Source: Nocardioides marinus (GTDB taxonomy: Bacteria > Actinomycetota > Actinomycetes > Propionibacteriales > Nocardioidaceae). From it: 64,000 bases of DNA. Of this stretch, positions 52,686 through 55,371 are shown piece after piece (position 1 is the first letter of the stretch; the number at the start of each line of letters is the position of its first letter). Under the pieces are notes generated by a model. It worked only from the letters and a program-made list of their open reading frames with translations, was not told where the DNA came from and made no database searches. A program made the translations under genes and the position numbers. Location: assembly GCF_013408145.1 (NCBI RefSeq), contig NZ_JACBZI010000001.1, positions 2,184,001 to 2,248,000 of the forward strand, in the 5' to 3' direction.

Positions 52686-53390
52686 TCAGGCGTCGCGGTT
52701 CTTCTTGGCCCGCTGCTCGGCCTTCTTCTTCGCCTTCTCCTTCGCCGCCTTCTTCTCGGCCTTCTTCTCGGCCTTCTTCTCGGCCTTCTTCTCGGCCTTC
52801 TTCGCCTGCTTCTCGGCCCTCTTCTCGGCGCGGGCCTCTGCGCCATTCCTACCGCCGCGCTCGGCCGCCGCGGCGTCGCCACGCCCGTCGCTCAGCACAC
52901 CCTCGGCCGGAGCCACCACCGTGGCCGGCGGGTCCAGCAGCGAGGGACGGGCAGCGGGACGCGGGTCGAGCAGCACCGGGGTGACGATCCGGGCACCGGC
53001 GGGGTCACCCTCGACCGAGCCGTCGGCGAGGTCGAGGAACAGCGGCGCGGCCGGCACCCGCATGCCCAGCTGCTGGGCCTTGCGGGCGACCACCTGGGGG
53101 TCGCGCAGGTTCTCCAGCTGCATGCCCAGCGACTCCTCGCGGGCCGAGAGGAGGGTCGCGCGCTGCTCCAGCGAGGTCGCCGTGAACGAGGACTGCTGCA
53201 TGGAGGTGTTGAAGAGCAGCAGCCCGACCACCCCGCCGAGCAGGAGCAGCGTGACCAGGGAGACGAACGGCACGCGGGCGGCACGGGTGCGGGCGCGGGG
53301 GACGACGGTCAGCCGGGCGCGCTCGACGGCGGCCTCGGCCAGGCGCGGTGCGCGCTGGCGCAGCGCTGCGGTGCTGACGGGGCTGGGCAT
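52686..53390 (-). CDS. ftsL: FtsL-like septum protein with Lys/Glu-rich tail
   Basis: 234 residues, longer than usual FtsL. Basic cytoplasmic tail, one membrane helix at about 41-60, a coiled-coil segment (SLEQRATLLSAREESLGMQL), then a Pro-rich linker and residues 184-234 made of AEKKAEKK-like units ending in KKKAEQRAKKNRDA. Its place between rsmH and ftsI supports FtsL. The membrane topology puts the charged tail outside the cell. ATG shares one base with the rsmH stop. Confidence 0.85.
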   Translation of the reverse strand: MPSPVSTAALRQRAPRLAEAAVERARLTVVPRARTRAARVPFVSLVTLLLLGGVVGLLLFNTSMQQSSFTATSLEQRATLLSAREESLGMQLENLRDPQVVARKAQQLGMRVPAAPLFLDLADGSVEGDPAGARIVTPVLLDPRPAARPSLLDPPATVVAPAEGVLSDGRGDAAAAERGGRNGAEARAEKRAEKQAKKAEKKAEKKAEKKAEKKAAKEKAKKKAEQRAKKNRDA

Positions 53391-54418
53391 CAGACGGCTC
53401 CCCTGTTCCTGCTCTGGTTCCTGCTGTGGGTCCTGCTCGGGCGGTGGGTACGGGACGGGTGGACCCGCTCGACGGCGCGCAACCGGACGGAGGCCGCCCG
53501 TGGGTTCTCGGCGATCTCGCCCTCGTCGGCCTTCTCCGCGCCCCGGGTGACCAGACGCAGTGGCGGCTCGCTGCCCTCCGGCACGAACGGGAGGTCCGGG
53601 GGGACCTCCGAGCGGGTGGCGGCGGTGAAGGCCTGCTTGACCATCCGGTCCTCCAGGGAGTGGTAGGACTCCACGACCACGCGGCCCCCCACCCCGATCG
53701 CCTCGATGGCCGCGGGCAGCGCCCGGCGCAGCACGGCGAGCTCGTCGTTGACCTCCATCCGCAGCGCCTGGAAGGTGCGCTTGGCCGGGTGCCCACCGGT
53801 ACGCCGGGCCGGAGCCGGTATCTCGGCGTACAACAGCTCGACCAGCGGGCCAGAGGTGGTGAACGGCTCGGAGTCACGGCGACGCACGACCGCCTGGGCG
53901 ATCTTGCGGGCGAACTTCTCCTCGCCGTAGTCACGCAGGATGCGGGTCAACTCCCCCACCGAGTAGGTGTTGAGCACATCGGCGGCCGTCGGCCCGGTGG
54001 TGCCGTCCATGCGCATGTCGAGCGGCGCGTCCTCGGCGTAGGCGAAGCCCCGCTCACGCACGTCGAGCTGCATCGAGGAGACCCCGAGGTCGAAGAGCAC
54101 GGCGTCGACCTCGGCGAGCCCTAGCTCGACCAGGACGTCCGGGATCTCGTCGTAGACCGCGTGCACGCCGGTGAACCGGTCACCGAACGGCGCCAGTCGC
54201 TCACCGGCCAGCGCCAGGGCCTGGGGGTCGCGGTCGATGCCGATCACCCGGGTCGAGGGCAGCCGGGTGAGGACGGCCTCGGAGTGCCCACCCAGACCCA
54301 GGGTGCAGTCGACCATCACCCGTGAGTGGGTCTCGGTGTCGGTGTCGCGCTCCAGGGCGGGCGCCAGCAGCGCCACGACCCGGTCGAGGAGCACCGGGAC
54401 GTGCAGGGGGCCGGCCAC
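53390..54418 (-). CDS. rsmH: 16S rRNA (cytosine(1402)-N(4))-methyltransferase RsmH (MraW)
   Basis: 342 residues. Methylates C1402 in the ribosomal P site. SAM fold [36 protein letters not shown], and [10 protein letters not shown] are all family motifs. The C-terminus is a basic tail of Arg/Ser/His repeats ([16 protein letters not shown]), beyond the usual end. GTG start, 1 nt after a small membrane-protein gene. It is the first large gene after the mraW-type RNA hairpins. Confidence 0.96.
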
Positions 54419-54419
54419 G

Positions 54420-54581
54420 TCAGCGACCCAGGCCCGAGAGGCCGGTGAGCAGCGCCAAGGCCACGGCCGCTCCCACCGAGGTGGCGAAGGAGAACGCCAT
54501 GAGGGCGGCTGCGTCGCGGGCCTGGTGCCGGACCCGCCGCTCGGCGGCCGGCGCCGGCGACGGCGCGTGCGTGCTGCTCAT
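54420..54581 (-). CDS. 53-residue single-helix membrane protein between mraZ and rsmH
   Basis: Short gene reading [17 protein letters not shown] at the start, then a basic stretch (RHQARDAA) and one hydrophobic helix at about 25-50 ([18 protein letters not shown]), ending GLSGLGR. The TGA is 1 nt before the rsmH GTG (TGACGTG), which suggests translational coupling. No strong ribosome binding site. It is the first reading frame after the two RNA hairpins, so it, rather than rsmH, may be the immediate target of their control. Function unknown. Confidence 0.65.
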
Positions 54582-54608: not shown

Positions 54609-54657
54609 GGGGTGGTGGAGCGGGGTGGTGGAGCGGGGTGGTGGAGCGGGGTGGAGC
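54609..54657 (+). repeat. 13-nt tandem repeat GGGGTGGTGGAGC
   Basis: Three exact units and a 10-nt partial unit in the mraZ-rsmH spacer. Each contains GTGGAG, the box seen at the mraZ promoter, but on the opposite strand and with 13-nt spacing. Confidence 0.9.
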
Positions 54658-54708
54658 CGGTGGGGGATCCCGCCGGGCCTGGTCCTCGCCCGCTCCGTGA
54701 GCTCGTGA

Positions 54709-54734
54709 TCTGGGGCCGGGGAAGGTGTCCCAGA
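54709..54734 (-). ncRNA. mraW-type RNA hairpin, copy B
   Basis: Minus strand: TCTGGG, loop ACACCTTCCCCGGC, CCCAGA. 6-bp stem, 14-nt loop. Loop is identical to copy A while the stem differs by paired changes. Matches what I recall of the mraW RNA motif of actinobacteria: a hairpin with highly conserved terminal loop before mraW (rsmH) operons. Confidence 0.75.
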
Positions 54735-54742
54735 GACGTCCG

Positions 54743-54768
54743 TCTGCGGCCGGGGAAGGTGTCGCAGA
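54743..54768 (-). ncRNA. mraW-type RNA hairpin, copy A
   Basis: Minus strand: TCTGCG, loop ACACCTTCCCCGGC, CGCAGA. First of the pair in transcription order, about 95 nt past the mraZ stop and 8 nt before copy B. Confidence 0.75.
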
Positions 54769-54821
54769 AGGGGATGGAGCGGGCAGGGACCAGGCCCTGC
54801 GGTGTCCCGCTGTGCAGTTGT

Positions 54822-54849
54822 GTGGAGCGTGGGTGGAGCGCTGGTGGGG
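54822..54849 (+). repeat. Three GTGG(A/G)G boxes at 11-nt spacing
   Basis: GTGGAG at 54822 and 54833 and GTGGGG at 54844, on the plus strand just past the mraZ stop. Possibly further MraZ contacts in inverted orientation, or chance in a G-rich stretch. Confidence 0.4.
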
Positions 54850-54862
54850 CAGTCGGTCGCCC

Positions 54863-55288
54863 TCAGTCGCTGGGCGACTCGTCGAGCTCGGCGAACTTGG
54901 CCTGCGCCCCGCTGGAGTACTCCTCCCAGCGGGCCGGCGACCAGATCTCCACGCGGTCCCCGACCCCCACCACGACGACGTCGCGCTCGAGGCCGGCGCT
55001 GGCGCGCAGGAAGGTCGGGATGCCGATGCGCCCCTGCTTGTCCGGGGTCCCCTGCTCGGCTCCGGCGAACAGCACGCGGCGGTAGTCACGCGCGTCCTTG
55101 TTCGTCATCGGCGTCGCCTGGGCCCTGGCCGCCTCGGCCATGAACGTCTGCTCGGGCCACACGGTCAGGCAGTTGTCCTGTCCCTGAGTGATCACGAGGC
55201 CCTCCGCGAGCGCGTCCCTGAACTTGGCGGGGAGGAAGAGGCGGCCCTTCTCGTCCAGCTTCGGCGTGTAGGTGCCCATGAAGAACAC
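54863..55288 (-). CDS. mraZ: Transcriptional regulator MraZ
   Basis: 141 residues: two SpoVT/AbrB-like halves (about 6-48 and 77-120) with the family sequences YTPKLDEKGRLFLPAKFR and PDKQGRIGIPTFLR. MraZ forms ring oligomers and binds repeated TGGG/GTGG boxes at its own promoter, repressing the dcw operon. GTG at 55288 is chosen because GGAGG lies 6 nt upstream and the protein then starts FFMGTYTPKLD; an ATG three codons in is possible. The GTGG box array lies 38-83 nt upstream. Confidence 0.95.
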   Translation of the reverse strand: MFFMGTYTPKLDEKGRLFLPAKFRDALAEGLVITQGQDNCLTVWPEQTFMAEAARAQATPMTNKDARDYRRVLFAGAEQGTPDKQGRIGIPTFLRASAGLERDVVVVGVGDRVEIWSPARWEEYSSGAQAKFAELDESPSD

Positions 55289-55325: not shown

Positions 55326-55371
55326 CTCCACTTTCCCCCACTCTACTCCACTTCCCTCCACCGTCAACCAC
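55326..55371 (-). promoter_or_regulatory. MraZ operator: five GTGG boxes at exact 10-nt spacing
   Basis: On the minus strand GTGGTT, GTGGAG, GTGGAG, GTGGGG and GTGGAG start at 55371, 55361, 55351, 55341 and 55331. One turn of helix per box is the arrangement of known MraZ sites (repeats spaced by 10). They cover the promoter at 55340-55367. The rest of the 304-nt divergent gap to the MoxR gene is a pyrimidine-rich plus strand with no gene. Confidence 0.8.
55340..55367 (-). promoter_or_regulatory. mraZ promoter (TTGACG - 16 nt - TAGAGT)
   Basis: -35 TTGACG at 55362-55367 and -10 TAGAGT at 55340-55345 on the minus strand, spacer 16 nt. Start expected near 55333, giving a leader of about 45 nt. 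It lies within the MraZ boxes. Confidence 0.65.

Follow-up and report, generated by a model that had tools for sequence, protein, structure and literature searches.

Twin CUUCCCC-loop hairpins within one outer stem between mraZ and rsmH of Nocardioides marinus: a putative variant of the mraW RNA

The mraW RNA (Rfam RF01746) is found before rsmH, also called mraW, in Actinobacteria, and consists of an outer stem around a CCUG..CUUCCCC..CAGG hairpin; its consensus contains one hairpin and no second CUUCCC. In the passages of Weinberg 2010 that deal with it, the motif is described as probably an RNA and probably cis-regulatory, its status as a switch being left ambiguous (PMC2864571). Corynebacterial papers, in the excerpts consulted, report it as an Rfam match (PMC5784534, PMC3890552, and one more). 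According to these excerpts, the mraW start of C. diphtheriae is downstream of the motif (PMC5784534), and in C. glutamicum the mapped mraW start (2,266,932) falls inside the 3′ end of the motif (2,267,021-2,266,916; PMC3890552). As the corynebacterial motif is thus upstream of, or ends at, the mraW start in the cases excerpted, the element need not be a 5′-UTR switch, and it may act mainly in the mraZ read-through RNA. A search of the open-licence literature found no functional study of the reader or mechanism of the mraW RNA, which has been catalogued since 2010.

We analysed a stretch of 64,000 nucleotides from Nocardioides marinus, hereafter the window, in which the mraZ–rsmH spacer carries two hairpins on the minus strand, the coding strand of both genes (Table 1). 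Read on this strand, they are TCTGCG-ACACCTTCCCCGGC-CGCAGA (54768..54743) and TCTGGG-ACACCTTCCCCGGC-CCCAGA (54734..54709). An earlier note on this DNA had described two hairpins 8 nt apart with an identical 14-nt loop, and stems differing by one compensated G-C/C-G swap; both descriptions proved exact, down to the coordinates. In the register shared with relatives, each hairpin has 6 bp, an A.C mismatch, a closing C-G pair and a 10-nt loop, ACCUUCCCCG; the site of the mismatch is mostly occupied by G-C, G-U or A-U in relatives.

Table 1. Features of the mraZ–rsmH region, with positions in the window.
Feature	Position	Strand	Description
Five MraZ-type GTGG boxes, period 10	55328..55371	minus	from sequence, upstream of mraZ
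mraZ	54863..55279	minus	138 aa, Pfam MraZ E 1.3e-38
Outer stem, 5′ strand (CCGCAGGGCCUGGUCCCUGCCCGCUCC)	54776..54802	minus	25 predicted pairs with 3′ strand
Hairpin 1 (first in transcript)	54743..54768	minus	UCUGCG/CGCAGA, A.C mismatch, closing C-G, loop ACCUUCCCCG
Linker between hairpins	54735..54742	minus	8 nt
Hairpin 2	54709..54734	minus	stem UCUGGG/CCCAGA, loop ACCUUCCCCG as in hairpin 1
Outer stem, 3′ strand (GGAGCGGGCGAGGACCAGGCCCGGCGG)	54670..54696	minus	predicted fold, conserved in relatives
Small ORF directly before rsmH	54420..54581	minus	53 aa
rsmH/mraW	53390..54418	minus	342 aa, Pfam MraW methylase E 1.9e-107

Both hairpins are united into one branched element by an outer stem, which was absent from the earlier note and is of the variant form GGUCCC/GAGGACC. 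The whole element (54670-54802, 133 nt) had a predicted folding energy of -87 kcal/mol (z -6.92), with 0 of 200 shuffles as low; it also folds as DNA (z -5.04). For the 86-nt stretch with just the two hairpins, the signal was moderate (z -2.15, 6 of 200 shuffles as good). In predicted folds of other elements, the three hairpins of a three-hairpin element lay within the outer stem, and a second hairpin inserted on the 5′ side was likewise kept inside it.

To what extent the element belongs to RF01746 depends on whether threshold or homology is considered. At the Rfam gathering score (50 bits), no match was found in the window; under relaxed settings, RF01746 matched hairpin 2 alone (18.4 bits, model positions 39-65), with E 0.69 for a 931-base search. 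Among 20 loci of relatives, the cut-off was passed by 0 of the 14 Nocardioides loci and by 4 of the 6 other loci of the order. When 11 Nocardioides loci were searched at E ≤0.5, seven of the eight single-hairpin loci matched the model at full length below threshold (31.6-49 bits, E 1.4e-7 to 0.0068). No match was listed for the remaining single-hairpin locus, L060, or for any of the three tandem loci, among them that of the window. The extra hairpin of the window lies outside the model and the genus has diverged from it, and RF01746 is likely under-counted in Nocardioides. The window has the site upstream of rsmH, the apical hairpin CCUG..A.CUUCCCC..CAGG and the enclosing outer stem; it stays under the 50-bit gathering score and has two hairpins, not one, inside its outer stem. 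We therefore assign the element to the mraW RNA as a variant on the homology of position, loop and outer stem and not on the Rfam threshold, and the best reading of the sequence is an mraW RNA with a duplicated apical hairpin. The earlier proposal of an mraW-type RNA thus stands as regards conserved place, loop and pairing, and stands only in part as regards the Rfam model, whose match stays below the cut-off.

The element was widely conserved. In a first set of 58 genomes including the window's own, MraZ was detected in 57, and a CUUCCCC-loop hairpin was present 3′ of mraZ in 57/57 of these loci; the MraZ of one genome (G016) is 99% identical to that of the window. For the genus survey, 176 genomes were searched, and 100 requested regions, L107 and L111, and 36 loci of the first set were brought to 136 loci, leaving out L124 (contig end) and L211 (mraZ missed by the pattern), which has the hairpin according to the covariance search. 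By a rule set by hand (stem score ≥4.5, with three loci admitted at 3), the hairpin was present in 135 of the 136 loci. A covariance model of the hairpin found it in 135 of 137 loci at E ≤0.1, missing L010 and L142. The spacer comparison suggested by the earlier note was thereby borne out, both loop and pairing being conserved in sister species. The sole locus of the 136 that lacks the element, L142 (genome G411), misses it as a whole; its sister loci L145 and L143 have it, and the junction lies at CCGCAG, a sequence that flanks the element on either side in these two loci. This loss may be a natural deletion or an assembly collapse.

Some hairpin matches were observed away from mraZ. Two (L099 and L100) had no mraZ in the stretch fetched, and the L100 hairpin has a different loop context. 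L099 (G197, contig C227) is a well-paired CUUCCCC hairpin with neither mraZ nor rsmH in 1,000 bases, which may reflect another target, a contig break or contamination. The secondary matches L103, L108 and L110 contained no qualifying hairpin.

Beyond the genus, a class-wide covariance search at E ≤0.1 returned 155 of 296 genomes, a figure that is an undercount, with 23 candidates scored per genome, and that may include up to about 30 chance matches. Among 30 loci returned by this search, the MraZ motif was found upstream in 30 and the RsmH motif downstream in 28; the remaining two had little downstream sequence. In the window's own genome, the spacer alone was below E 0.5 among the 150 of 5,699 candidates scored; hairpin 1 matched the covariance model with 48.4 bits (E 2.1e-8), and the second hairpin itself was unlisted in this search. 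The pattern CACYTTCCCCGG occurs eight times in this genome, and two of these are the spacer copies. The six other sites are in open frames of at least 187 codons, on the sense strand, which in GC-rich DNA is weak evidence of coding; under a loose rule, the stem score was at least 6 in three of them.

Conservation is strictest in the loop letters; the stem changes in a compensated manner, with little change in its CUG/CAG part. In the first hairpin alignment, 69 of 70 matches were kept, one spurious match in G029 being dropped; the C before UUCCCC was invariant in all 69, which had been chosen via UUCCCC, so that UUCCCC itself is fixed by construction. The loop reads ACCUUCCCCG in 127 of 179 loops. 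Such nearly fixed letters, in repeated sites, would also suit a trans-acting sRNA that kisses the loops with a G-rich GGGGAAG seed, since bacterial sRNAs do pair at C-rich loops. We consider such a partner distinctly unlikely: it would need a spread as wide as that of the element, which reaches 155 of 296 genomes of the class, and to our knowledge there is no sRNA with such a spread.

To evaluate the pairing, we compared aligned hairpins and whole elements. In counts that are, here and below, uncorrected for relatedness, 10 of the 11 pairs of 33 aligned hairpins (29 distinct) change on both sides, and 90.3% of the cells are paired, versus 28-46% with the partners slid. For single-hairpin loci, an outer-strand pattern and length limits kept 64 of 93, of which 45 were aligned as whole elements; 13 of the 25 pairs change on both sides and 96.2% of the cells are paired (at most 54.1% in the slid control). 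The outer-stem pairs, paired in 97.9% of cells, supply 5 of these 13 pairs. As both-side changes are few (5) and 5 of the 17 outer-stem pairs are invariant, the outer stem is conserved mostly in sequence, and it resembles a scaffold in which some letters are conserved in their own right.

The two copies within tandem loci were also compared (34 distinct loci; in three-hairpin loci, the first two copies only). Of the differences that keep pairing, 36 out of 42 change both sides, against 0 out of 7 in the slid control; 35 further pairs had at least one copy unpaired. At least one compensated pair between copies was observed in 24 of the 34 loci. The earlier note had argued that covariation inside one genome shows selection on structure. 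This went too far for the window, where a single pair is concerned: according to an excerpt on template-switch mutation, such an event can yield compensated changes in one step (PMC8794818), and one compensated pair in one genome is, alone, thin evidence. The argument that pairing is maintained is carried by the cross-species data, which support it. In L185 (G359), a locus with three hairpins, the middle stem has opposite letters (CCCAG..CUGGG) with the same loop, a natural stem swap.

In 68 distinct stems, G.U cells outnumber A.C cells (49 versus 19), so that the mRNA strand is favoured. This bears on the idea that the element works in the DNA, as an operator or a cruciform read, for example, by MraZ. 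The large inverted repeat, which folds as DNA with the z given above, and the opposite strand of CACYTTCCCC, which resembles part of the G-rich MraZ box, would agree with it, as would the motif upstream of the mraW start in the C. diphtheriae excerpt (PMC5784534). Nevertheless, stems that vary by compensation and the excess of G.U over A.C speak for an RNA, and MraZ binding to the element, tried as a candidate, was rejected on the counts of tandem GTGG boxes (10-nt period), which were present in 26/26 mraZ upstream regions and in 0/26 elements. A DNA-level role is accordingly judged highly unlikely.

The number of motif copies differed among loci. Of the 136 genus loci, 93 have one hairpin, 40 have two, 2 have three and 1 has none. 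In 68 of the 93 single-hairpin loci, a UUCCC was observed 19-26 nt 3′ of the loop, against 2.5 loci expected from shuffles of that slice; this linker motif was rarer in loci with two or three hairpins (6 out of 42). When both forms were counted, 103 of 135 elements have two copies, 25 have one and 7 have three. Among 177 copies in hairpins and 73 in linkers, 98.3% and 94.5%, respectively, were predicted to be unpaired (probability >0.5). A second ACUUCCCC was found on the 3′ side in 8 of 8 loci from another family of the order; in the one locus that was folded, it is predicted to form a one-sided bulge of the outer stem. Thus, the motif has three formats, namely hairpin loop, single-stranded linker and outer-stem bulge, the latter two as predicted by folds. 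One locus, L199 (G406), has an extra CUUCCCC-loop hairpin (GUCGUCACUUCCCCGGACGAC) beyond the outer stem, in addition to a hairpin and the linker motif; this genome was counted as multi-hairpin, among the 40 loci with two, in the 136-locus census, and was reset or left out in the tree test, the unpaired prediction, the copy comparison and the copy total.

Although frequent in Nocardioides and in some relatives, a second site is not universal. Most of 16 other families sampled (one to three loci each) have one copy and, together with the 25 of 135 Nocardioides elements with one, this indicates that two sites are not generally required. The second hairpin and the linker motif were negatively associated (Fisher p 1.2e-10, uncorrected for relatedness). 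With relatedness controlled, 5 pairs on supported branches were available, and the association was not recovered (median p 1); over 200 pairings, the linker motif differed in the same way in 0.1, in the opposite way in 1.3 and not at all in 3.6 of the 5. As independent pairs are too few, we do not claim a trade-off between hairpin and linker as proven, and it is suggestive only.

The three formats also bear on a metabolite riboswitch, here in tandem, like the double switch suggested by the earlier note. Other tandem riboswitches exist. The excerpt of Weinberg 2010 left the question of a switch ambiguous for mraW (PMC2864571). Against this, the core is one short loop that recurs as hairpin, bare linker or bulge, whereas a binding pocket normally comprises several conserved junction parts; a metabolite pocket would hardly be copied in the form of a bare linker, and we regard a riboswitch as barely probable.

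Further motif copies seem to have arisen more than once. On the best tree of MraZ and the start of RsmH (136 rows), much of whose backbone is weakly supported, no fewer than 10 changes are required for the tandem state and no fewer than 16 for the linker motif. We read gain and loss of further copies, repeated between lineages, as real. A scan by sequence only, for two CACCTTCCCCGG copies 34 to 64 nt apart and with no stem information, covered 84,980 species (one genome each) and returned 36 stretches. An rsmH motif followed in 29 of these, and in each of the 29 both copies formed at least 6 of 8 stem pairs; 27 of the 29 also had an mraZ motif. Gene identity at these loci was assigned by short protein motifs. 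None of the seven matches elsewhere had both stems (0/7). Besides Nocardioides and Pimelobacter, the 29 loci included Gulosibacter macacae, a Sporichthya MAG, an Acidothermales MAG and other MAGs.

Anatomy, covariation, the position upstream of rsmH and the turnover of copies between lineages are established as far as sequence comparison goes, and from these we propose a role. The element would be a scaffold on which one to three CUUCCC sites are offered to a reader that recognizes the sequence and is probably a protein, and passage from mraZ to rsmH would thereby be controlled; we hold this tentatively, at a little less than an even chance. Transcription from the mraZ side would run through the element, giving an intercistronic RNA. 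The outer stem, with its predicted pairs, would hold the two hairpins side by side, each showing an unpaired loop, and an RNA-binding reader would grip the CUUCCC sites. This reader would most likely be a protein, either dimeric or with two binding surfaces, so that two sites give a tighter grip. Bound or free, it would alter the share of the mraZ transcript that continues to the small ORF, rsmH and the division genes; termination, processing and translation are candidate routes.

A sequence-specific reader is the simplest account because the loop letters are the most strictly kept and are repeated, and the frequency of two copies would be explained by a reader with two sites. A protein is favoured because the comparisons made here gave no incidental pointer to a partner RNA and because the strongest matches are almost only before rsmH; this restriction would also agree with control by an operon product. 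One such product was considered and not supported: RsmH binding its own mRNA through mimicry of 16S rRNA. The best 16S match of the window's loop with two flanking letters on each side is about 30 nt 5′ of what we take to be the position of the RsmH target, and it is not significant, with 30/500 single-letter and 21/500 dinucleotide shuffles as good (151 to 402 of 500 for seven other loops).

A broader version of the reader proposal is possible and more doubtful. In it, the mraW RNA would present modular sites to a bivalent CUUCCC-binding protein, which couples expression of the rRNA methyltransferase RsmH with that of the division genes. Selection would keep the number of sites and not the details of the fold; the second site would have been rebuilt repeatedly in Actinobacteria, as a hairpin, an unpaired linker or a stem bulge.

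The same exposed motifs could serve RNA processing or stability. RNases would cut the C/U-rich loops, the outer stem would protect one side, and the ratio of mraZ to rsmH would be set without a dedicated regulator. The long outer stem appears stable in predicted folds, the motif is predicted to be exposed, the position is intercistronic, and in the C. glutamicum excerpt a mapped mraW 5′ end lies within the 3′ edge of the motif (PMC3890552). Yet a cut site alone would not obviously keep loop and outer-stem letters so constant, and the corynebacterial mraW ends are, in the excerpts, described as TSSs or compared with primary 5′-end data. We consider processing unlikely on balance.

The region behind the element was also considered, as its structure together with a G-poor, C/A-rich stretch could form a transcription attenuator, that is, a Rho-type or pausing site shaped by the hairpins. 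Rho prefers C-rich, G-poor RNA, and the 85-nt 3′ flank of the window element is composed of 52% C and 20% G. This does not hold across the genus, where the 3′ flank has on average 37% C and 31% G, so that a C-rich, G-poor flank is not general, and an attenuator of this kind seems very unlikely. As regards read-through, which the reader proposal assumes, no TANNNT hexamer was found between the element and the next start in any of the 130 genus spacers (of 135) that could be delimited by pattern; these are short (median 88 nt) and GC-rich, with few hexamers expected, and the absence is a weak hint of read-through.

Several other sequences were observed near the element. The 53-aa ORF before rsmH has, by eye, one hydrophobic stretch, and a Pfam search with it gave no match. 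Its stop is separated by 1 nt from the assumed GTG start of rsmH, and its motif R[VM]RxQAR[ED]A is present in 75 of the 136 genus loci; it is possibly a leader peptide or a small membrane protein. The GTGG boxes upstream of mraZ, which the pattern count resolves into four tandem matches, are context and outside the RNA element. On the plus strand, antisense to the operon, 54615-54656 contains three GTGG-N6-GTGG matches with a 13-nt period (GGTGGTGGAGCGG repeat), located in the spacer 3′ of the RNA element, and two further GTGGAG are at 54822 and 54833; these look like MraZ-type boxes in the reverse direction. Finally, several relatives (e.g., L049-L054) also have CTTCCCCGG where the mraZ coding sequence ends; it may reflect coding constraint or a further motif copy.

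Among other known systems, certain alphaproteobacterial sRNAs with CCUCCUCCC loops also have hairpins with C/U-rich loops; they act in trans, come from other loci and differ in loop sequence. UpsM is an sRNA of Rhodobacter sphaeroides whose source is the 5′ leader of the dcw cluster (PMC5089854). As described in the excerpt, it stands before mraZ, derives from a Rho-independent terminator and is alphaproteobacterial (PMC5089854); we claim no homology. Twin hairpins in one outer stem are a new layout of the known mraW RNA family. What is repeated is the loop sequence itself, which takes three formats and in Nocardioides is usually present exactly twice; candidate readers are thereby narrowed to loop-specific binders, possibly with two sites, and the twin-site layout suggests that the reader of the mraW RNA grips two sites. 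Tandem riboswitches and protein-binding leaders similarly place two like RNA modules in series on one transcript. Here, in contrast, a single stem encloses both modules, which are minimal stem-loops, and in many relatives the place of the second hairpin is taken by an unpaired motif copy.
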